Assembly: GCF_000377785.1 (NCBI RefSeq) | Contig: NZ_KB898735.1 | Coordinates: forward strand, 1 to 61,217 | Direction: 5' to 3' | DNA from: Thioalkalivibrio sp. ALJ24 | GTDB taxonomy: Bacteria > Pseudomonadota > Gammaproteobacteria > Ectothiorhodospirales > Ectothiorhodospiraceae | Length of the DNA stretch: 61,217 nt | Shown here: one piece after another, positions 10,333 through 61,018 of the stretch | Position numbering within the stretch: the stretch's first letter is position 1 | How the letters are laid out: each line of letters opens with the position of its first letter | Made by a program: the position numbers and the translations under genes | The notes under the pieces: generated by a model | What the model saw: the letters and a program-made list of their open reading frames with translations, nothing else | Databases searched by the model: none | What the model was told of the DNA's origin: nothing

Positions 10333-16083
<5,751 letters not shown>

Positions 16084-47299: not shown

Positions 47300-47533
47300 A
47301 TGAGCAAAACCTATCTGACGACGCGTGAGCTGGCAAGGCGGATTGGCTACGAACCGCGCACCATCCGGGAACGCCTGAAAGATTCGGTCCTCATCGAAGG
47401 CCGGCACTATTTCCACCCGTTCGGGGGGCGGAAGATCCTCTACATCTGGGAGCACGTTGAAGAGGACATGTTCGACACGGCCATGGACGCCGCGGTCATC
47501 CCGATGGCTTCGGGAGGTTACTGCCATGGCTAG
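47300..47533 (+). CDS. excisionase-like small DNA-binding protein
   Basis: The 77-residue protein has a MerR/excisionase-type helix-turn-helix (YLTTRELARRIGYEPRTIRE) followed by a wing-like HYFHPFGGRKILYIW. It would bend attachment-site DNA to direct excision. CAGGAG lies upstream. It overlaps the integrase start by eight bases, so both would be made together once the repressor is lifted. Confidence 0.75.
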   Translation: MSKTYLTTRELARRIGYEPRTIRERLKDSVLIEGRHYFHPFGGRKILYIWEHVEEDMFDTAMDAAVIPMASGGYCHG

Positions 47534-48743
47534 CGTGAACTGCAAGAACGGAAGGCTCTACGTCGACTTTCGCTGGCAGGGGCGGCGTCGCCGCGAATAC
47601 ACGGCCCTGAAGGATACGGAGACCAACCGCAAGCGGCTGCTCAAGGTTGCGCGCAACATTGACCGCGACATCCAGGCGGGCCGATTCGACTACGCGAAAT
47701 ACTTTCCCGACAGCAATCTGGTCCAGCAAAATCCGGGGCGAGGTAGCACGGTTGAAGGGCGTCATCGCATGGGCCCGGAAAGTCAGGCCGGGTTGTCCTC
47801 TCGACCAGCCTCCGCCCATACGCCATCCCTCGGTCGTTTCTATGCACAGTGGACCGAAGAGATGGCACCGACCTGGCGGCAGACGTACCGCGAAAGCGTC
47901 GCGACCGCTTTCGAGACGCACGTCTTTCCGTTCTTCGGGAGGGAGAGAGAGGTCGGCGACATCAGGAAGGAAGATATCCACGCATTCCGGGCCCATCTCG
48001 CCAAAGGTAGCCCCGTACGCAAGCGTGAGCTCTCGCCTTCCACCATCAACAGGACACTGAAGATCCTGCGGATGATGTTCGATGAAGCCGCCGACCGCTT
48101 CCAGTTTAGGTCACCTTTCGTGGGCGTGAAACTCCTCAAGGAGCGCAAGACCCAGGTGGATCCGTTCACCCTGGAAGAGGTGAGCCTGATCCTGAAGCAC
48201 GCTCGTGCCGATTTTCGCAACTACTTCACCGTGCGGTTCTTCACCGGACTCCGGTCCGGTGAAGCCCACGGGCTCAAGTGGAAGCACGTCGACTTCGAAC
48301 GTAACCAGATCCTGGTTCGCGAGACCTACGTGGATGGTCGGACCGAGTACACCAAGAACGATGGTTCCCAGCGCGAGGTGGACATGTCCCGGCGGGTCCG
48401 CGAGGCGCTGCTCGACCAGCGCCAGGCGACCGGGCGCCTCGAGCACGTCTTCACGAACGCCGAAGGGCTCCCACTCGACAACCGCAATTTCACCAAGCGG
48501 GTCTGGACGCCTCTGCTGCGCTATCTCGACATTCCGTACAGGCGCCCGTACACCATGCGGCACACTGCCGCTACTCTTTGGCTGGCGGCCGGCGAGTCAC
48601 CGGAGTGGATCGCGCGTCAGCTGGGGCACTCCTCTACGGAAATGCTGTTCAAGATCTACTCGCGGTACATCCCGAATGCCACTCGACAAGACGGCTCGGC
48701 ATTCGAAAACCTGATCGACGAACGCTTCGGAGGTGAGTCGTGA
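47526..48743 (+). CDS. int: tyrosine-type site-specific integrase
   Basis: The 405-residue enzyme has an N-terminal arm-binding domain of the DUF3596 type (NCKNGRLYVDFRWQGRRRR), a SAM-like core-binding domain, and a catalytic domain with Arg243 (TGLRSGEAHGLKW), Y-T-M-R-H in place of H-x-x-R, LGHSSTEM, and the likely nucleophile Tyr378 (KIYSRY). The Tyr at the first His position occurs in many active relatives. It probably placed the island at the tRNA-Met. Its stop overlaps the next gene as GTGA. Confidence 0.93.
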   Translation: MASVNCKNGRLYVDFRWQGRRRREYTALKDTETNRKRLLKVARNIDRDIQAGRFDYAKYFPDSNLVQQNPGRGSTVEGRHRMGPESQAGLSSRPASAHTPSLGRFYAQWTEEMAPTWRQTYRESVATAFETHVFPFFGREREVGDIRKEDIHAFRAHLAKGSPVRKRELSPSTINRTLKILRMMFDEAADRFQFRSPFVGVKLLKERKTQVDPFTLEEVSLILKHARADFRNYFTVRFFTGLRSGEAHGLKWKHVDFERNQILVRETYVDGRTEYTKNDGSQREVDMSRRVREALLDQRQATGRLEHVFTNAEGLPLDNRNFTKRVWTPLLRYLDIPYRRPYTMRHTAATLWLAAGESPEWIARQLGHSSTEMLFKIYSRYIPNATRQDGSAFENLIDERFGGES

Positions 48744-49597
48744 GGGGGGCGGATTGGAAGACCGAACATGGAGCGCACGTATCAGGTACCGACGACGAAC
48801 GAACCTTCGGCATTTATCGCGTCCGAGATTGTTTCGAGCGTGGTGGTAGAAGGTATCTGGTCCTGCATCTGGCCGGCCAACGATGGCAGACCGAGGTGCA
48901 GGACCCTGCGACGGTGTCCGGCGTCCGAAGTGGATCGGTCGTGGAGGTCCAGTTTTCCAGCCCTGCGGGAGCCCAGCCGAGCATCTGCTTCATTCGCCCT
49001 CTGGAACCGGGCGAGTACTGGCCCAGCCAGGTGATGCCGACGTCATGGTGCGTGGACGGTGCCGACCCGGAACGGCTGCGCATGTTGATTGAGCGGCTGC
49101 GCACAGCACCCTTTCGCCATTTCATGGAAGGGGTGGTAGAAGACCTGCCGCTGCTGAAGCGCTTCTTTCAGGTGAAGGCGAGCTACCAGCATCACCATTC
49201 AGTCGCGGGTGGGTTGCTTCGCCATTCGCTCGAGTGTGCAGAGATTACGGAGCAGGCCGTCCAGAGCGCACCAGAGTCGTGCAACACTGCTATCGACGAC
49301 AGCCTGCGCGACGCCATAGTCCTCGCCGCCCTGTTCCACGATTTCGGCAAGATCCTCACGCATTCGGGCGGTTCCCCCTGGTTGCTTCGCGAGACGCCCC
49401 ATGAGCACTTGTCCCTGGTGGCTTTGTCGGCGCATCTGCCGCGTCTTGCGAACCTGTCGGCGAAGGCGCACGCAACGCTTATTCATATGCTGATTCAGGA
49501 TGCTCAACGCAAAGGGCATGCATCGCCCTTGCCTCTGGTCGACACTATTCGCATGGCCGATCGAATGAGTGCCGGTTTGCGGTTGTTTGGCAGTTAG
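48740..49597 (+). CDS. OB-fold plus HD-domain phosphohydrolase (YhaM/TraI-like)
   Basis: The 285-residue protein has an N-terminal OB-like part (residues about 20-85), a helical link, and an HD domain from about 130: HHHSVAGGLLRHSLECAEIT, then LFHDFGKIL with the HD metal pair near residue 200. This order matches the YhaM 3'-5' exoribonuclease family, and the HD part also resembles the TraI_2 domain found in mobile elements. It starts at a GTG coupled to the integrase stop. A role in nucleotide or RNA turnover during transfer or defence is inference. Confidence 0.7.
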   Translation: MRGADWKTEHGAHVSGTDDERTFGIYRVRDCFERGGRRYLVLHLAGQRWQTEVQDPATVSGVRSGSVVEVQFSSPAGAQPSICFIRPLEPGEYWPSQVMPTSWCVDGADPERLRMLIERLRTAPFRHFMEGVVEDLPLLKRFFQVKASYQHHHSVAGGLLRHSLECAEITEQAVQSAPESCNTAIDDSLRDAIVLAALFHDFGKILTHSGGSPWLLRETPHEHLSLVALSAHLPRLANLSAKAHATLIHMLIQDAQRKGHASPLPLVDTIRMADRMSAGLRLFGS

Positions 49598-49771: not shown

Positions 49772-50233
49772 TCAGGTGGCGGGATTCTCCTTTTCGGGCC
49801 ATTCCAGAAATGGTTCGTCACCAGGGATCCACCCGGGCAGCCACTGGTCGAGCGTTGCTTCCACGTCGCTGCCACGGAGGCCGCATTCCCAGAGGATCAG
49901 TACGCGCCAGCCGGCGGTCAGAAGCTGCTCCTGGTTGCGCTGATCACGGGCAATGTTCTGGCTGAATTTCTTCTGCCATTTTTCCGGGTTGGTGGACGGA
50001 GTGGTGGTCAGGCGGCAACCACGGTGGCGATGCCAGAAACAGCCATGGATGAAGATGGCCAAGGAATGTTTCCTGAGAACGAGATCGGGGCTGCCCGGGA
50101 GCCTTGCCTGATGAAGCCTGTAGCGGAAACCTCGCGAATGGAGAAAACGACGTACCCGCATCTCGGGTCGCGTGTTGGTCGAGCGGATCCCGGACATCAT
50201 CCGCGAGCGCGTTTTCGCATCAACTACGTCCAT
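49772..50233 (-). CDS. vsr: very short patch repair (Vsr) endonuclease
   Basis: Vsr nicks 5' of T in T:G mismatches that arise when 5-methylcytosine deaminates, so it normally pairs with a C5 methyltransferase. The 153-residue protein has MSGIRSTNTRPEMRVRRFLH, the catalytic LPGSPDLVLRKHSLAIFIHG (broken by the Asp), CFWHRH, and AGWRVLILWECGLRG. I chose the ATG at 50233 (MDVVDAKTRSRMM), which is the family start. It is divergent from dcm across 62 bp. Confidence 0.93.
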   Translation of the reverse strand: MDVVDAKTRSRMMSGIRSTNTRPEMRVRRFLHSRGFRYRLHQARLPGSPDLVLRKHSLAIFIHGCFWHRHRGCRLTTTPSTNPEKWQKKFSQNIARDQRNQEQLLTAGWRVLILWECGLRGSDVEATLDQWLPGWIPGDEPFLEWPEKENPAT

Positions 50234-50295
50234 CGAGTGTTGCTCCCGAGCGGCCCCGCGGGCGTGAAACCTTCTCTGCAGAAAGGGCTCATTCA

Positions 50296-51894
50296 ATGAC
50301 GCCTGTACCCGTAGCGGACCTGTTTGCCGGCCCCGGCGGCCTGGGTGAGGGCTTCGCCTCGCTCACGGATGCCTTTCGCATTGAACTGTCTGCGGAATGT
50401 TCGTCCTCGGCCCACCGTACGCTGCGGCTGCGCGCGTTCAAGCGCGCCCTCGAGGCTTCGGGTGAAAGCACGGCCCCCTATTATGACTACGTGAAGGGCC
50501 GGCGAGCTGCCCCGTGGACCGATGCGACCCGCGAACTCTGGGAGGAGGCGGAGCGGGAGGCACTGTGCGTGACGCTGGGGAACGCCGATGATGACCAGCG
50601 CTTCTCGCAGGCCCTGGCGCAGCGGGATTTTGTCGACGGTGTTCTTGTCGGGGGCCCGCCGTGTCAGGCGTATTCGCTGGTCGGCCGAGCCCGTAACCGG
50701 GGTATCGAGGGATATGTTCCCGAAGACGACGGTCGCCACTATCTGTATCGCGAATATCTGAAGCTGATCCAGAATTTTCGCCCGGCCGTTTTCGTGATGG
50801 AGAACGTGAAGGGCATTGTCAGCTCGCGGGTTGGCGGACGGAGGATCTTTCACGACATTCTCCGAGATCTCGTCGACCCGGATGAGGCTCTCGCGCGTGC
50901 TCCGAACGGACCGGGATACAGGATCCATTCACTGGTCGATCCCGGGGTCGTGTTTTCGGCCGGAGAGGATCCGGCCGCGATTCCTTCGCATGCCTTTACG
51001 GTGAAAGCCGAGGAACACGGCGTCCCGCAGGCCCGCCATCGCGTCTTTCTCCTGGGGGTGCGGGAGGACCTGGGTGTAGCCCCCGGGTGCCTGCACAAGC
51101 GCCGGGCCACGACCGTCGCCGATGCGGTCGGCGACCTGCCCGCGTTGCGCAGTCGCCTGTCCAGGGGGGACAGCGAACAGGCCTGGCGGCAGGAGGTTTC
51201 GGAGCGAGGCGAGGCCCTTGTGCGGGAGGCAGCGAGGCGCGGTCAGGACGCCCTGGCCGAGGAGCTGGACAGTGCCGTCAGGCGCATTCGGGAAATCCGG
51301 CAATGGTCGGTTGGTGCCCGGTCACAGCCTCTGGTTTCGGCACCCGAAACCAGGAACGTCGGTGGTCTCGCGGACTGGTGGCATGACCCGCGTCTGGATG
51401 TGGTGCTCAATCACGAAACCCGCTCGCACATGCCAGCGGATCTTGCCCGTTATCTTTACGCGGCGAGCTTTGCTCGCGCATGCGGGCGTTCACCCAAGGG
51501 GGCTGATGACTTTGCCCTGCCGGGTCTCGCGCCCAGCCATGCCAACTGGACGACCGGAAAATTCGCGGATCGATTCCGGGTGCAGTTGGAAAACGAACCC
51601 GGCAGGACGGTCACCAGCCATATCGCGAAGGACGGGCACTATTACATTCACCCCGATCCGGGGCAGTGTCGTGCGCTGACCGTGCGTGAAGCCGCGCGGA
51701 TTCAGACCTTCCCCGACGACTACTTTTTCGAGGGCAACCGGACCGAGCAGTATCATCAGGTCGGAAATGCCGTGCCCCCGTTTCTGGCCCGCCAGATCGC
51801 CATGCTGGTGAAGGACTTGCTGGTCGCCCATGATCAGCAGAAAGCCTCCCTCGCCACGGAGGACCCTTTTCAAAGAGCGGAAGCGACTGCCTGA
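50296..51894 (+). CDS. dcm: DNA (cytosine-5) methyltransferase
   Basis: The 532-residue protein has all key C5-methylase motifs: I (VADLFAGPGGLGEGF), IV with catalytic Cys123 (GGPPCQAYS), VI (VMENVKGIVS), VIII (VPQARHRVFLLG), IX (LTVREAARIQTFPDDYFFEG) and X (YHQVGNAVPPFLA). The recognition domain between VIII and IX is long, and target sequence cannot be read from it. It carries a spacer of about 60 residues after motif I. No matching type II restriction gene lies next to it; the Z1/PD-(D/E)XK/GHKL operon follows. Confidence 0.95.
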   Translation: MTPVPVADLFAGPGGLGEGFASLTDAFRIELSAECSSSAHRTLRLRAFKRALEASGESTAPYYDYVKGRRAAPWTDATRELWEEAEREALCVTLGNADDDQRFSQALAQRDFVDGVLVGGPPCQAYSLVGRARNRGIEGYVPEDDGRHYLYREYLKLIQNFRPAVFVMENVKGIVSSRVGGRRIFHDILRDLVDPDEALARAPNGPGYRIHSLVDPGVVFSAGEDPAAIPSHAFTVKAEEHGVPQARHRVFLLGVREDLGVAPGCLHKRRATTVADAVGDLPALRSRLSRGDSEQAWRQEVSERGEALVREAARRGQDALAEELDSAVRRIREIRQWSVGARSQPLVSAPETRNVGGLADWWHDPRLDVVLNHETRSHMPADLARYLYAASFARACGRSPKGADDFALPGLAPSHANWTTGKFADRFRVQLENEPGRTVTSHIAKDGHYYIHPDPGQCRALTVREAARIQTFPDDYFFEGNRTEQYHQVGNAVPPFLARQIAMLVKDLLVAHDQQKASLATEDPFQRAEATA

Positions 51895-52519
51895 GCCGCA
51901 GCCGCAGCGCAGTCAACTACGCCGCGACAGGTTGGCCAGAGCCGCATGGAACACCGCATTCACGCGGCCAAGGAGCTCGTCCTCGCCGAGCCCGTCGAGA
52001 TCCTGTGTTACGGGGTGCGCGGTCAGACTGCGAATGGCATCACGAGTCAGGGCCTCCATCGGAACTCCGGAATTCTCCTGCCTGATCCGGTTCCAGGCCG
52101 ATGCAATCGTCCGCGCGGTTCTCGGACTGGCCGAAAGGTCCGGGTGCTCGATAATTTGCGCCAGAGCATGCTTCGTGGCCGGTTCGGGTTAGTTCCGGCC
52201 CGCACCACGCACCATTGTGGTCGGCCCTTGGGTGGCGTTGCACGGCCTGCTCCGGGACTTCGGCACCCTGTGCAATTGGGTGGCATGCCGGGCGGGGGTC
52301 ATATCGCCGATGGAAGGCCACCGTCGAGCGCCACCGCTGCAACGCGGCACCGCTCCCCCTGAGTGTCCAGCGGCATTGGCACATCAAGACCTTGGGTCGC
52401 CCCCTGAGGGACGTCTGGACTTCCCAGCCGACCTTGATTCTGCAATCATCGCGTGGTTTCTTCTAGTTGTATCAGCGACGCTGACATCCACCCTCTTCGC
52501 AACTCCATCGGAGGTGTTC
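51895..52519. other. 625-bp region between dcm and the Z1 gene
   Basis: This stretch has no full gene that I can support. It must hold the promoter of the Z1 operon. The minus strand has a degraded or start-less protein-like frame (next entry). An AT-richer segment at about 52430-52500 precedes the Z1 ribosome site and is the likeliest promoter zone. Confidence 0.5.
51913..52188 (-). pseudogene. start-less protein-like frame, possible gene remnant
   Basis: On the minus strand, a frame stays open from just after a TAA at 52189-52191 to a TGA at 51913-51915, giving 91 codons. Its translation has a natural look (HALAQIIEHPDLSASPRTAR, then MEALTRDAIRSLTAHP, and GLGEDELLGRVNAVFHAAL), with amphipathic helices and normal residue use. 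There is no ATG or GTG near its front, so it is either the 3' end of a lost gene or chance. I do not recognise the family. Confidence 0.3.
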
Positions 52520-55165
52520 GTGCCGGGGCCACAGGTAGACAGTTTGATTGAGCGTATCCGTCAGGCGCTTCCGCGACACGGAAATCTTGATGCCGCGGTT
52601 AGGGCGGTGCGCGATGAATTCGAGACGCTGGACCCCGGGCTTGCGCAAAAACTGTCCGGCGAAATCGACGAAGCTCGGAGTTTCGTTGCACGGGAATTCG
52701 AACAGATCGAGATACTCCACACACATTCCGTCATCCAAAAACGTCCGCAGTGGTATTTCGGACCCAAACCTTCCGACCTGCACTGGCCCGCAGTCAAGGC
52801 ATATCTTCTGAACCAGAAGAACTGGCCGGAAGATGATGTTCGGGGAATCGATGACGCATCCAATGAGGTCGTGTCCCTTCTGGAAAACCCCCGCAACCCA
52901 GAAAAACCCCAGTTTTCTGCCCGAGGACTGGTTGTCGGTCACGTCCAGTCAGGGAAGACCGCAAACATGACCGCAGTCATCGGGAAGGCTTTGGACTCGG
53001 GTTACGACACGATCATCGTCCTCGCTGGCCTCACCAACAAGTTGCGGTATCAGACGCAACTCCGCCTTCACACGGACCTCGTGCAACGGAATCCACTCAA
53101 TTGGCATGTTCTGACTCGCAATGACATCAATCGGGACTTCCGGGCACCCGCTCAAGGCGGGTTCCTATCGCATTCCGACAAGGCCCAGCTTGCCGTGATA
53201 AAGAAGAACGTGTCGCCCCTTGGAGAACTCAAAGACGCCATACAAGAAACCTATCCGGCGGTCCTCAAGCAGCTCAGGGTCCTCGTTATCGACGACGAAT
53301 GCGACCAAGCCAGTGTGAACTCCGCGCGCGGCGAACTGGACATGACCGCCATCAATCGGCGCATTCGCGAAATTCTATCCCTGCTCCCGGCCGTCACCTA
53401 TGTCGGTTACACGGCGACACCGTTCGCCAATGTTCTCATCAACCCCTACCGCACCGATGGGCAGGAAATCGACGATCTGTATCCCCGGGACTTCATTACT
53501 GCGCTTCCCCATCCGGAGCGATATTTTGGAACAGAACGGCTGTTTGGGAAAACTCCGGAAGACCCGGCAAACCCCCTGCCCGAGGAAGAGGGTCTCGACA
53601 TGATCCGGGAAGTCCTTCCCGAAGAAGAGGCCCTTCTACAACCACGAAGCCGCAAGGAGCGCGATTCGTTCCACCCTGAGATGACACCAAGCCTGGAGGA
53701 TGCGATCCTGTATTTCCTTGCCTGTTGCGCGGCGAGGCATGCCCGTGGCGACGGCGAGAAACACATGACCATGCTGGTACACACCTCGGCCTACGTGACG
53801 GCGCACGAACGGGTTGCCTCGCTCATACAGGGCTGGATCGATGTCAGCCGAAGTGACTTGGCCGATCGTCACTCGGACCTCGCCAAGAAACTCGCAAGGC
53901 TTTGGAATGACGAGGCCGAAAGTCTCCCGAGGGACATCACGGATGCGCCTAGAGTGTCTGCTAATCAGATCTTCGAGCATTTACCCAAGGTGCTCGGTCG
54001 CCTCGAATTTCCGGTCGAGAACGGAGCGAGCGACGACCGCATCGATTACTCTGCGCCCTCGCGGACCTATATCGTGGTCGGCGGCTCGATCCTCGCACGG
54101 GGGCTCACCCTTGAAGGACTGATGGTGAGTTACTTCCTGCGGTCTGCAAACCAGTACGACACGCTGCTGCAGATGGGGCGATGGTTCGGTTATCGCCCCG
54201 GCTACGAGGATCTACCGCGAATCTACATGCCGAATGAACTGAAAATGAGGTTCAGGGCACTCGCGGCCGTCGAGCAGGAAATCCGCGACGATATCGAACA
54301 ATATCGATTGCAGGATCTGACCCCCATGGACATCGCGGTCCGTGTCCGCGCCATACCCGGCATGGCGATCACGGCTGCGAACAAGATGCGGGCGGCCCGC
54401 CGCTGCGCCGTCAGCTACTGGGGCACCCACCGCCAGACTTTCCGGTTTTCTCACCTTGACCAAGAAAAACAAATGCGGAACTGGAATGCCGGCGCTGAGC
54501 TTATCAGTCGGATCGAAGCTCTCGGATTGCGGGACAAACGGGCCGATGCCACTGGCCGAAAACTTTGGTGCAAGGTACCCAAGTCATCAGTGCGCCGGTT
54601 TCTGGAATCCTTCACGGTGGAATCCTCTCACGCAGACCTGCTACCCGATCTGCTGATCCCATTCCTCGAGGGTGGAGACCCCCGCCTTGACCATTGGAAT
54701 GTCGGCATCGTCGAACCGGGACGAGGCACCCCCTCTGAATTCGACCTTGGAAGTGCCGGAAAAGTGAGAACGGTACGGCGTGCGAAACTGAAGGACCTTG
54801 GACAGATAGCAGACATCAAAGCCCTGATGTCCAAGCGCGACCTCCTTTTCGATTGCTACAACGATGGCGAAAAATCCGGCACGTGGGACGACCTCAAGGA
54901 AGCGCGTCTTCAAGAAGTCGGACAGGTGCCACTCCTTCTGCTCTACGCGATTGACCGGCATTCGGCTCCTGAACGCGAAAGCAAACTCAAACTGCGTGAG
55001 CCTCTGGACGCGGTACATGACGTTCTCGGTCTTGGCGTCGTGTTCCCGGGATCGATCACGGAGGGCGGTAACTTCGTGTCCGTCGAATTAAAACCGGTCT
55101 CCGCAGAAGAACTCGAAGAGATTGAACAGGAGGAAGCGGCTCAGGCGGAGGCAGCCGGTGTCTGA
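52520..55165 (+). CDS. Z1-domain helicase-like ATPase
   Basis: The 881-residue protein has Walker A GHVQSGKT at residues 140-147, Walker B LRVLVIDDECDQAS near 258, helicase-like VGYTATPFANVLINP, and the Z1 signature IVVGGSILARGLTLEGL followed by QMGRWFGYRPGYEDL. Z1 proteins occur in phage-defence loci with MutL-like ATPases. GTG at 52520 is chosen because GGAGGTG lies just upstream and residues before it are not protein-like. The stop lies inside the next gene's first codons, so translation is coupled. Confidence 0.9.
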   Translation: MPGPQVDSLIERIRQALPRHGNLDAAVRAVRDEFETLDPGLAQKLSGEIDEARSFVAREFEQIEILHTHSVIQKRPQWYFGPKPSDLHWPAVKAYLLNQKNWPEDDVRGIDDASNEVVSLLENPRNPEKPQFSARGLVVGHVQSGKTANMTAVIGKALDSGYDTIIVLAGLTNKLRYQTQLRLHTDLVQRNPLNWHVLTRNDINRDFRAPAQGGFLSHSDKAQLAVIKKNVSPLGELKDAIQETYPAVLKQLRVLVIDDECDQASVNSARGELDMTAINRRIREILSLLPAVTYVGYTATPFANVLINPYRTDGQEIDDLYPRDFITALPHPERYFGTERLFGKTPEDPANPLPEEEGLDMIREVLPEEEALLQPRSRKERDSFHPEMTPSLEDAILYFLACCAARHARGDGEKHMTMLVHTSAYVTAHERVASLIQGWIDVSRSDLADRHSDLAKKLARLWNDEAESLPRDITDAPRVSANQIFEHLPKVLGRLEFPVENGASDDRIDYSAPSRTYIVVGGSILARGLTLEGLMVSYFLRSANQYDTLLQMGRWFGYRPGYEDLPRIYMPNELKMRFRALAAVEQEIRDDIEQYRLQDLTPMDIAVRVRAIPGMAITAANKMRAARRCAVSYWGTHRQTFRFSHLDQEKQMRNWNAGAELISRIEALGLRDKRADATGRKLWCKVPKSSVRRFLESFTVESSHADLLPDLLIPFLEGGDPRLDHWNVGIVEPGRGTPSEFDLGSAGKVRTVRRAKLKDLGQIADIKALMSKRDLLFDCYNDGEKSGTWDDLKEARLQEVGQVPLLLLYAIDRHSAPERESKLKLREPLDAVHDVLGLGVVFPGSITEGGNFVSVELKPVSAEELEEIEQEEAAQAEAAGV

Positions 55166-56171
55166 GAGTAGGCCCTATGCGTCGGTCGCCGGACAATGGA
55201 ATGTCCTTCGCACTAGCGGCGGCAGTGGTGATGGGTTTGAGGTGCCGTCTCTAGCTCTGCCGGCAAGGACTGACGCGGGCCAGATTCGCCTAGCTGTTGG
55301 GCCGAATGGCGAAGCAAGGTTGCTTGTTCCACTGGCTCGAGATGACAGCCTGCAATCAATGGAGGCCGGGCCTGCGCTACTCATCAGCGTCTCGACCTTA
55401 ATGCACAAAGGGCGCGCATCCCGGTTCATGGATCTCATGTGCCTTTCCAGTGAACTCGAAACTGTGTTCGGCGATGTCGTAAGCGAAATCCTCGCACGTA
55501 TTGCCGCAGGCGCAAACGTCTCGCAGGCAACGAGTGAAACGATCGAGGATTTTCGTGCGTTGCTGATTCCGCACTCCCATCGCGACATAGAGCGGCACCG
55601 AGTCGCAGGGCTGGTAGGAGAACTCGTTATCCTGAACCGACTCCTTGACCTCTCGCCCTCTGCCTGGCGGGCATGGCAGGGGCCGGCGGGTGACCGGCAC
55701 GATTTCAGGGTTCGTGACAACTCGCTCGAGGTGAAGGCATCACTTCGAGCGGGCGTCAGTGTTATTACGATCAACGGGCTGGCGCAGCTGGAACCGCCTT
55801 CGGATGGATCTCTCCATCTTCTCCACCTTGTCCTCGAACCGGCCGATGGTAGCCTGCTGTCGGTTGCCGCCTTGGGCGGCCAAGCACTCTCGAAGGCAGA
55901 TAACCCCTCTGGGCTGCGGGAATTGCTGTTGTCCGTCGGTTGCAGTGACATTCTCGATGAGCGGTGGAACCGCCATACCTTCAGACTCGAAGGGGAAAAG
56001 CTCTATTCCGTTTCGGTCGATTTTCCCCGGATTGCTCCGTCATGCTTCGAAGGGGGCGACGTCCCTGCCGGCGTCGTCGATGCAACCTATGAGATCGACC
56101 TTGGTTTCGCCGAAAGCTGCAGGCGTCCTCCCACCGAGGTTGACGAACTGCTTCGAGAATTTGCCAGATGA
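55158..56171 (+). CDS. PD-(D/E)XK motif protein (DUF4420-like)
   Basis: The 337-residue protein has a nuclease-like core: Glu155 in AGLVGELVILNRLL, Asp182 in HDFRV, and Glu191-x-Lys193 in LEVKAS, which fits the D-xn-ExK pattern. It belongs with proteins annotated as PD-(D/E)XK motif (DUF4420) in Z1-containing defence loci, and it may be the DNA-cutting part. I chose the GTG at 55158 with GGAGG upstream; it overlaps the Z1 stop by eight bases. Its stop overlaps the next ATG as ATGA. Confidence 0.82.
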   Translation: MSESRPYASVAGQWNVLRTSGGSGDGFEVPSLALPARTDAGQIRLAVGPNGEARLLVPLARDDSLQSMEAGPALLISVSTLMHKGRASRFMDLMCLSSELETVFGDVVSEILARIAAGANVSQATSETIEDFRALLIPHSHRDIERHRVAGLVGELVILNRLLDLSPSAWRAWQGPAGDRHDFRVRDNSLEVKASLRAGVSVITINGLAQLEPPSDGSLHLLHLVLEPADGSLLSVAALGGQALSKADNPSGLRELLLSVGCSDILDERWNRHTFRLEGEKLYSVSVDFPRIAPSCFEGGDVPAGVVDATYEIDLGFAESCRRPPTEVDELLREFAR

Positions 56172-58012
56172 CGCAACGCACTCTTGAACTGTACTCGGAG
56201 CCCTATGGCTCGACCGGGAACATCGGCGAAAATTTCCGAAAGCTTCTCGGCGCCCCGACCCTGGATCCCCTCCAGACCGTCATACGCGAGTCCGTCCAAA
56301 ACATCGCCGATGCGGCGAAGCTTGGAACAGGGCCGGAAATCCTCATCAGAATCCGGACGCTTACTACCTTTCAACGGGACGTGCTCAGAAACCGGGGCCT
56401 TGCGGAGCTACCCGAAGAACCGACGTCGAACAGACAGATCTGCAATGCCCTGGATCAGGATCCGTTGGTCGTTCTGGAAATCTGCGATTTCGGAACAGTG
56501 GGCCTTGGAGGGCCGACTCGATCAGACCGCATTCCTGTCGGGACGAAGCGGACCGACTTCATCGACTTCCTGCGCAACATCGGAACACCTCGAGACACCG
56601 AGCACGGTGGTGGAACCTACGGATTCGGGAAGGTTGCGCTGTATCGGGCCAGCACTTGCAGCACAATCATCGTCGACACTCTTCCTCACGGCGGTGATCC
56701 GGACAACCGCCGGCTCATCGGCTGTCATGTTGGTCGATCATTCGAGAGTCCGGAAGATGGCATGCTTCGCAGGTTCACCGGACGACACTGGTGGGGAGCA
56801 CGAGATCCGGAAGATGGCATTGCCGATCCGCTGACTGGCACGAGCGCCGACGAACTTGCCAACGCCCTCGGCTTTCCTGACCGACGGGAGCGGGGAAGCG
56901 GGACCTCCATCATGATCGTCGGCTTTCAACCCGAAGACGAAGACCTGCGAAACGCGGCGAACCGCATCGTCGAGTCTCTCCTTTGGAACTTCTGGCCAAG
57001 AATGATGACGGATTCACCGGACTCGCGGCGGTTTAGGTGCAGGGTCATGTTGGAAGATGCGGAGGTCCCCGTTCCGGAGCCCGAAACGCTTGCGCCGTTC
57101 CATCTGTTCTGCAACGCCATGCGGGCAGCGCGCCACCGCGAGGGAAATGACGTGCGGCGCATCGAGTCGTTGAAGCCACCGAAGTACCTGGGAGCTCTGG
57201 CCATAGAGAAGGGATTGAGATCGCCGCGCCGTCCTCTCGTGGCGACGGACTCACTCGTACCGGAGCAGCTTCATCACATCGCGCTCATGCGGCCCGTTGA
57301 GCTCGTCGTGAAATACCTCGAGGGCAACCCGCTTCCGGATGGGCGCCTCGAATGGGTGGGAGTGTTTCTGGCGAGTGACGAGGATGAGGTCGAACGCGCC
57401 TTCGCTGATTCCGAACCGCCAGCACATGATGACTGGGTCCCCGACAACCTCTCCAAGGGTAATGAGAAGCGCTACGTGAACGTTGCGCTGAGACGGCTCC
57501 GCGAGGCGGCTGTCGAAATGGGCCAAGAGGCAACGCCGCAATGCAGCGGCCGAAGCGACGGGCCGCCGTTGGCGCGGCTGGCTGGACGGCTGGGTTCTGT
57601 TCTCGAGAATGTCGGAGGAGACGGTGCCGGCCGCCGCCGCACAACTGGCGGGGGGCCTGGCCCTCGGCCGAAGCGCGCGCGAGCCACCCGCCCCGGTTTC
57701 GAGCGTCTGGAAGTCAAAGCGAAGGGAAAGGTTGCCGTATTCTCGACCGATGTGACACAGGACGAGAAACGAAGTGGTGTCGCGTTGAGTGCGTCGGTAG
57801 CAGTTGCCGTGGAGGGGGCAGGACTAGGGCATACCAAGGAGGATGCCCCGAACCCCGAAGTGCTTTCCATCAAATGGTCTGACCGCGGTGAAGTCGCGGA
57901 TGGCGCGGTCTTCGACCTTTCAGGACGCGAAGGACGTTTCGAGATTTTCGTGAGAGTCCCTGACGACTGCGCGGTCATCGCTTCGGTCGATGTGTTGGAA
58001 GAGGCACCTTGA
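56168..58012 (+). CDS. GHKL-type ATPase (MutL/HSP90-like)
   Basis: The 614-residue protein has an N-terminal GHKL ATP site: N-box RESVQNIADA (Glu41, Asn45), G1 box ICDFGTVGLGG (Asp107), and G2 lid GGGTYGFGK (147-155). The rest has no motif I can name, apart from a low-complexity Gly/Arg-rich link near 495-515 (GGDGAGRRRTTGGGPGPRPK). By context it is the MutL-like partner of the Z1 protein. Such ATPases likely act as clamps that sense DNA or nucleic acid. Confidence 0.85.
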   Translation: MTQRTLELYSEPYGSTGNIGENFRKLLGAPTLDPLQTVIRESVQNIADAAKLGTGPEILIRIRTLTTFQRDVLRNRGLAELPEEPTSNRQICNALDQDPLVVLEICDFGTVGLGGPTRSDRIPVGTKRTDFIDFLRNIGTPRDTEHGGGTYGFGKVALYRASTCSTIIVDTLPHGGDPDNRRLIGCHVGRSFESPEDGMLRRFTGRHWWGARDPEDGIADPLTGTSADELANALGFPDRRERGSGTSIMIVGFQPEDEDLRNAANRIVESLLWNFWPRMMTDSPDSRRFRCRVMLEDAEVPVPEPETLAPFHLFCNAMRAARHREGNDVRRIESLKPPKYLGALAIEKGLRSPRRPLVATDSLVPEQLHHIALMRPVELVVKYLEGNPLPDGRLEWVGVFLASDEDEVERAFADSEPPAHDDWVPDNLSKGNEKRYVNVALRRLREAAVEMGQEATPQCSGRSDGPPLARLAGRLGSVLENVGGDGAGRRRTTGGGPGPRPKRARATRPGFERLEVKAKGKVAVFSTDVTQDEKRSGVALSASVAVAVEGAGLGHTKEDAPNPEVLSIKWSDRGEVADGAVFDLSGREGRFEIFVRVPDDCAVIASVDVLEEAP

Positions 58013-58013
58013 C

Positions 58014-58919
58014 ATGAATCGAAGAATTGCCTTCCCTTTCCTTACTCTTTCGGATGCCTCGATCGAAGCGTCCCCTTGGGAGGTTTCGGTCGACGGAAAT
58101 GACTGGGTTGAAGCCGGCGAGTTTCTACCGGACTGGGATTCGTCGTGCGACGTGCATATCCGGCGAACGGTCCGGTTGGTGCCGGAAGTTGCAGTTATTG
58201 ATTTGTCCCTGTCCATCGATGACCTTCAGCTATTGCTCGGCGTCCGGTTGGGTACGGGACAGGGCCGCCTGCCGCGCTTGGTCATGGACAGGAAGTTGGA
58301 GCGCGTGAACTTGGACAATCCCGTTTGGAAATTCGAACGGGTCATCGAGGGGCGGGCGCTCTCGATGGTTCTCGATCTTCAGACGGAGGTGATACTGGCC
58401 TCTCCTCCGGCGTCGCCAGGTGTGCTTTCCCCGAGGGCCTTCGGCGACCGCCTGTGGTCAGACAGCGTGCGCATCCGCCTCGAAGGCGAGGAGCCCCGTT
58501 TCCCGATCGAAACCGCCGATCTCGGGCAGCTTCTGGGCGAAGGTGTCGCTAGTGGTGCCCCATGGTATCTGCACTGGTCGCCACGCGACTGGAGTCGTGA
58601 ATTCAATGGCGCTGTCCGTCTGTACCTGAACGAGAGCGCGGCCGAATTTCTGGAGCGGATCGAGAATGAGGATCCAGCAACCCTTCAGCTCATCTTGGCA
58701 GACATCATGAGCCAGATTTGCGAAAGGTTTCTCGTCGACGCTGAAGCAGTCGAGTGGATCGACGCTGCGGAACCCGGGTCCCTTGGAGCCCAAGCAGAAC
58801 AATGGCTCCGCAAGGCATGGCCGGGAAAGGATGTCGCCTTCATCCGTTCCGTCCTCGAAAGCCGACCGGGCGCCTTCCGATCTGCGTTCCTCGCTCTCGC
58901 TGAACTCGGGGAAGCTTAG
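58014..58919 (+). CDS. unrecognised protein, fourth gene of the Z1 operon
   Basis: The protein has 301 residues and no family I recognise. There are no membrane helices or cysteine clusters. The N-terminal third is beta-rich (WEVSVDGNDWVEAGEF, HIRRTVRLVPEVAVIDLSLS); the C-terminal part is helical (ESAAEFLERIENEDPATLQL). Repeated Trp and acidic residues suggest a protein-protein interaction role. It begins one base after the GHKL stop and ends exactly at the next start, so it is a fixed part of the operon. Confidence 0.7.
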   Translation: MNRRIAFPFLTLSDASIEASPWEVSVDGNDWVEAGEFLPDWDSSCDVHIRRTVRLVPEVAVIDLSLSIDDLQLLLGVRLGTGQGRLPRLVMDRKLERVNLDNPVWKFERVIEGRALSMVLDLQTEVILASPPASPGVLSPRAFGDRLWSDSVRIRLEGEEPRFPIETADLGQLLGEGVASGAPWYLHWSPRDWSREFNGAVRLYLNESAAEFLERIENEDPATLQLILADIMSQICERFLVDAEAVEWIDAAEPGSLGAQAEQWLRKAWPGKDVAFIRSVLESRPGAFRSAFLALAELGEA

Positions 58920-59747
58920 ATGAGTTTTCTGCTTCCAAGGCTTCCCGACCCCGCCTGTGAAACTCTCGTCAGAAGTTTTCTTGAGCAGGGCCCGGAGCGA
59001 TGGCCAGGCTTCAGTCCGGCGAACCTTCCTTCTTCGGTGCGGTTTGCGGCAACGGGTGGAGCACCGCTAGGACGTGCGGAACTGACCCAATTGCGCACTG
59101 ACCTAGAGGAACTGGCTCGCGCCCATGGTTTCGGCGGGTCCAATGCCGGGAACTCCCATGCCGCATTCGATGCGAACGCAGCGGCATGGCTCGCGGAGGT
59201 CGAAATGTTCTCCACCGGCGAAGCACTGAGGGACGACGTCTGGAGTTTTGTCGCGGCCGTCGTCGCACCTGACATCGTGTACTGGCGGTTTGGCGCTGCA
59301 ATGGAGCGTTACACGGGTGGCGTCCGGAACACCTTTCAACGCCTGTGGATGCGCGGTCGCGCTCTTGACCGGGGCCCGGAGCACCCTGAGCGCTGGCAGT
59401 TGCTGGCGGAGTTGAGCGAGGATGCCTTGGTGCAAATCACCGAGCGTCCCAGTATTGGAGGCGATTCGACGCTTTCACTGGCAGTGGCGGAAGCATGGAT
59501 GCGAGCGTCGAAACTCCACGGCAGAACCTCGATGGAAGACCTCATGCGGCGGGCCATTCTCGAAATCCGCATTCGCAACGAGATCAGATCCCTTTCAGAC
59601 CTTCCAGCAGCAGAACTCGCTGGCTTCCTCAACGAGGTGTTCCGCGTTCCCAACAACCCCGGCGCTGCAGAAGCCGACGCGCCCGACAGTGGACCGGGGC
59701 GAGCAGATCGGCAAGCGATGAGGCTGCGGACGCGGAGTAGATCCTGA
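58920..59747 (+). CDS. unrecognised protein, fifth gene of the Z1 operon (possibly DUF6339-like)
   Basis: This 275-residue protein is mostly helical. The segment WRFGAAMERYTGGVRNTFQRLWMR near residues 121-144 (aromatic, Arg-rich) resembles what I recall of DUF6339 proteins from defence regions, but I am not sure of that. It has no known catalytic motif. Its ATG directly follows the previous stop. The stop at 59747 is only 7 bp before the IS481-type element, and the last residues (SGPGRADRQAMRLRTRSRS) are low in complexity, so the natural end is not certain. Confidence 0.65.
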   Translation: MSFLLPRLPDPACETLVRSFLEQGPERWPGFSPANLPSSVRFAATGGAPLGRAELTQLRTDLEELARAHGFGGSNAGNSHAAFDANAAAWLAEVEMFSTGEALRDDVWSFVAAVVAPDIVYWRFGAAMERYTGGVRNTFQRLWMRGRALDRGPEHPERWQLLAELSEDALVQITERPSIGGDSTLSLAVAEAWMRASKLHGRTSMEDLMRRAILEIRIRNEIRSLSDLPAAELAGFLNEVFRVPNNPGAAEADAPDSGPGRADRQAMRLRTRSRS

Positions 59748-59749
59748 GA

Positions 59750-60763
59750 CTAGCTGTCAGGTCCCGGCTGGTTATAAACACGTTTGCGAAATAAATCGGG
59801 GCGATCCTGTTGCCGGGCCTTGAGGGTCTCCACCGGCGTTCGGTGCCCCAGCGCCTTCTGCCCGATCTGATGGTTGTACAGGCGCTGGTACTCCCGGAGG
59901 GTGTCTTTCAGATGCTCTCCCGAGTCGAAGCGCCGGGTCCGCAGCAAGTCGGCGATCCGGCCGTTGAAGCGCTCCACCATTCCGTTGGTCTGCGGCCGTT
60001 TCGGCCGGATCAGACGATGCTCGATCCCGTGGTCGGCGCACAGCCGGTCGAACGGATGGCGCCCCGTGGGCTCGCGTTCATCGGTGGCCGCAAAGCGGTC
60101 CGTGAACTCCTTGCCGTTGTCCGTGACCACGTGCGTGACATGGAACGGCGCCCGCTCGATCAGCTTCTTCAGAAAACCGCGCGGCTTCGTCCGTCTTCGA
60201 GCGTCGTACCTCGAGAAAGACCCAGAGCGAGGCACGGTCGATGGCTACGAACAGGTAACCGCGCGAGGGCTCGGCGCCATCTGGGGCAGGTACTTCACGT
60301 CCACATGCACAAACCCCGGCACGTAGTCCTTGAACGGCTTGTGGCCGGGCTCGACGGCCTCGCCGGCCTGCTCGCGCTTGAGCGCCTGCAGGTCGCTGAC
60401 ACCGTGGCGGCGCAGGCAGCGGTCCAGCGCCGCCCGGCTGAGGTCCGGGTTCAGGAACTCGCGTGCCACGATCAGCAGATCGTCCAGCGACAGCAGGGCG
60501 ATCTCCTGGACCTGGACCACGATCGCCTCCTGTTCCGCCGTGAGCGTCGTGTGCATCGTTTTCAGACGATGGGTCTGGGCTGCCACCTCGGTGCGCCGAC
60601 GGCGCCACTTGCGCACCGTCATGCGGCTGACGCCGTAACGCCGGGCGAGTTCCGGGTCGCTGACGCCGGCCGGCGCCTCCTGCAGTTCCTGCCGGATCCG
60701 GGGTGTGGTGCGAGCGTTGGAATCGATCGTACTCGTCATGCCGTCAGCCCCCCGTTCGCTCAT
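59750..60763 (-). pseudogene. IS481-family transposase, two frameshifts
   Basis: The protein begins with a helix-turn-helix part ([20 protein letters not shown]) and continues to the integrase core ([13 protein letters not shown]). Near 60271-60278 the frame shifts and the second frame reads [20 protein letters not shown]. Near 60175-60182 it shifts again to [20 protein letters not shown], which continues through [17 protein letters not shown] to the end. The TAG stop (59750-59752) lies past the element's terminal repeat, within the CTAG target. Confidence 0.88.
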
Positions 60764-60842
60764 CGGGCACAGTACTCATCCACTCCCGGGCATGAAACAG
60801 GGGTGCCTTCTCTCGCGGTAAGTAATCAGGCGAGCCCTGACA
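59755..60842 (-). mobile_element. IS481-family insertion sequence, 1088 bp
   Basis: Terminal inverted repeats are TGTCAGGTCCCGGCTGGTTA (59755 on) and, on the other strand from 60842, TGTCAGGGCTCGCCTGATTA; 16 of the first 20 positions match. The left flank ACTAGC (59749-59754) fits the six-base NCTAGN target known for IS481. The right flank is TCTACT, so no target duplication exists. One flank has been exchanged or deleted since insertion. The transposase inside has two frameshifts, so this copy cannot move by itself. Confidence 0.85.
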
Positions 60843-61018
60843 TCTACTGGCAAGCCCAGGACCGGAAGACCCTCAAGCGGATCAACAAGTTGATCGCGGA
60901 TGTGAAGCGGCCACCGCTGGAAGGTATTGGCAAGCCCGAACCTCTCAAGGAGAACTTGGCTGGCTTCTGGTCGCGCCGTATTGATGACACCCATCGCCTG
61001 GTCTATGACGTGGTGTAA
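60843..61018 (+). pseudogene. yoeB: YoeB-type toxin remnant, broken at both ends
   Basis: The frame reads [20 protein letters not shown], then the strongly conserved [20 protein letters not shown] and [10 protein letters not shown]. These match YoeB, the mRNA-cleaving ribosome-dependent toxin of the YefM-YoeB pair. About 15 N-terminal residues are missing, cut by the IS481 end, and the C-terminal 18 or so with the catalytic His-Tyr end are missing, cut by another IS. There is no start codon and no yefM antitoxin. Confidence 0.85.

Follow-up and report, generated by a model that had tools for sequence, protein, structure and literature searches.

For a bacterial operon that combines a cytosine methyltransferase with a GHKL ATPase, the closest known systems include the paraMORC/MORC operons, for which Iyer, Abhiman and Aravind (2008; PMC2292703) predicted a role in restriction-modification. 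In the consulted parts of that paper, paraMORC2 proteins are defined by GHKL ATP-binding motifs and a conserved ExxxH close to the end of the S5 domain. An island of Corynebacterium diphtheriae BH8 carries an EcoRII-like endonuclease, unlike the locus treated here, and three further genes which are called unclassified there (PMC5379612). Here we describe a locus of Thioalkalivibrio sp. ALJ24, situated in the first 61,217 nucleotides of contig NZ_KB898735.1 (the window). It comprises vsr, dcm and a cassette of five genes, which together probably form a seven-gene anti-virus system with DNA methylation separating self from non-self. The seven-gene set was found in six bacterial phyla. The relatives used for comparison are 26 loci, each examined over a limited stretch around the locus.

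The methylation genes stand first. The very short patch repair endonuclease gene vsr (49772..50233, minus strand; longest open reading frame (ORF) beginning at 50296) is divergent from dcm, and its product matches TIGR00632 with 133 bits (cut-off 97.85) and PF03852 at 1.7e-29. Among the relatives, vsr gave a strong match in 21/26 and a weak one in 1/26, and none was seen in the examined stretch of the remaining 4/26. A second Vsr match in the window's genome (G000:C7:130244-130462) lies inside a long open frame of 653 residues. The C5-cytosine methyltransferase gene dcm (50296..51894, plus strand; PF00145 2.1e-40; TIGR00675) encodes the presumed writer of the self mark, and the residues PCQ, ENV and QxRxR are kept in at least 95% of 25 alignment rows.

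All cassette genes lie on the plus strand. The product of 52514..55165, already named Z1 ATPase in the preliminary description, matches PF10593 at 3.8e-67, and 95% or more of the 25 aligned sequences share its Walker A GxVQSGKT as well as DDE, TATP and QMGRWFG. It is followed by a putative nuclease of the DUF4420 PD-(D/E)XK fold (55158..56171; PF14390 1.4e-42), in which E167, D194 and E203-x-K205 (residue numbers count from 55122, where the longest ORF starts) are shared by 95% or more of the 27 aligned sequences. The third gene (56168..58012) encodes a GHKL-motif ATPase related to PDC-M33A with an invariant ExxxH (EPxxHDxW); E416-x3-H420 is invariant in 23 GHKL members, with the equivalent E424/H428 in 8 distant ones. 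By this motif, as described in PMC2292703, the protein may be regarded as paraMORC2-like. In Prochlorococcus (L033) a second, diverged GHKL-family gene was seen at 13150-15114 (minus strand), several kb from the operon. Together with two further genes this is the set that had been noted beforehand, and that observation is confirmed. A methylation-independent defence, triggered by a sign of infection such as DNA structure, DNA ends or proteins of the phage, with Dcm/Vsr being no more than a common companion in defence islands, is possible but unlikely.

The two further genes were called U1 and U2. U1 (58014..58919), present in 26/26 loci (as two frames in L023), is predicted to be a beta-sandwich with a helical C-terminal part and belongs to no known family (AlphaFold2 mean pLDDT 86.1, pTM 0.52); its structural neighbours concern the beta-sandwich only and are common Ig-like domains. 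U2 (58920..59747; mean pLDDT 88.9, pTM 0.82) has a predicted fold of nearly all helices, is placed in the DUF6339 group and is a probable relative of PDC-M33C. DUF6339 matches 10/24 U2 members at E<=1 (best 6.3e-15; 0.24 for the window's own), and the U2 profile recovers two proteins named DUF6339 by NCBI (L118, 1.8e-82; L119, 6.8e-67). An abortive system, with U1 and/or U2 as toxic effector freed by the ATPases and DNA cutting as secondary, would be in line with the many invariant charged or polar residues of U2 (R123, R136, N137, R145, D168, E175, R176) and with its confident predicted fold lacking a PDB match at E<=0.001, which leaves room for a novel enzyme. However, the Ig-like neighbours of U1 suggest an adaptor, and neither protein of the window gave a family match at E<=0.1 in library searches; we consider this reading rather improbable.

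Behind dcm lies what is left of the 3' part of another U2 gene, older than the intact one and degraded (51919..52209, minus strand; 76/97 residues identical to U2 of locus L010, with an internal stop). Because of this identity, and since the window DNA 51367-52227 is 79% identical to 2065-2928 of L010 across the dcm end into the piece, it appears from these alignments to be the remnant of an earlier convergent cassette. Near the cassette junction, about 108 bp (52231-52337) recur with 73-74% identity in G004 and G021, both from the same genus. The cassette also appears to swap with a different effector set, the AIPR-bearing MZA core, behind the same methylation genes. At 47457-49597 a tyrosine integrase adjoins a short TraI_2/HD (MobH-like relaxase) piece, which suggests that the locus sits in an integrative element. 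The stretch 59750-61018 opens directly behind U2 with an insertion sequence (IS), whose reading frames encode an integrase core and an HTH protein; next comes a YoeB-like toxin sequence without its start. A piece 92% identical to part of this stretch lies on contig C9 (52813-52986). A repair module, in which Vsr, a MutL-like GHKL ATPase, helicase and nuclease extend very-short-patch repair of 5-methylcytosine deamination at Dcm sites, would fit the resemblance to Vsr-MutL-UvrD repair, an analogy made in the consulted parts of PMC2292703. But the patchy distribution (GHKL family in 11/398 genomes), the cassette exchange and the mobile neighbours make it very unlikely.

Profile searches of same-locus relatives, asked for in the preliminary description, also bear on its reading as an MZA variant without AIPR, which holds in part. 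A window protein matches PADLOC MzaC at 1.5e-85, but it scores 362.9 bits with NCBIfam MzaC, below the cut-off of 1500, and belongs to a separate lineage. PADLOC MzaD, a PD-(D/E)XK protein, is matched at 4.5e-9, with 54 bits for the NCBIfam model against its cut-off of 420. MzaB, the MutL-like ATPase, has no match among the window's proteins; profile comparison with 15 MzaB-type proteins aligned 19 columns (probability 0.3%). MzaE (AIPR) is missing among the window's seven proteins and in the stretches of the 26 relatives, and neither U1 nor U2 could be aligned to AIPR. This absence is credible because the AIPR profile finds AIPR in 14/15 MZA-type loci, the fifteenth ending at a contig end. 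The MzaA (AAA ATPase) model has four matches in the window's genome, all of them away from the locus on C3, C4 and C5. MzaA may not be essential to MZA, since of three MZA-type genomes searched, G300 has it next to the locus but G025 and G342 do not. An MZA system that lost AIPR through the flanking IS is contradicted by the lack of AIPR in the examined stretches of the relatives, by the profile's sensitivity and by the missing MzaB, and can practically be dismissed.

Compared with the paraMORC/MORC operons, the consulted parts of Iyer et al. (PMC2292703) are without U1, U2, the PDC-M33 link, AIPR-free conservation and cassette exchange. PDC-M33, a PADLOC candidate with the components A, B and C, shares the gene order, with Dcm nearby. 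For U1, PDC-M33B gave an hhalign probability of 30% (E 5.5e-4), and 25 U1 members had no PADLOC match at E<=1. One PDC-M33C model matches 5/24 U2 members at E<=1 (best 1.8e-10; the window's not among them), and the third PDC-M33 gene appears homologous to U2 (hhalign 93%, E 3.3e-7). PDC-M33A, a model with no curated cut-off, matches 23/23 GHKL members; in the window's protein the match (1.2e-13) covers a portion of the length, and the GHKL proteins are homologous over 395 columns (A6 versus A11, E 3.6e-40).
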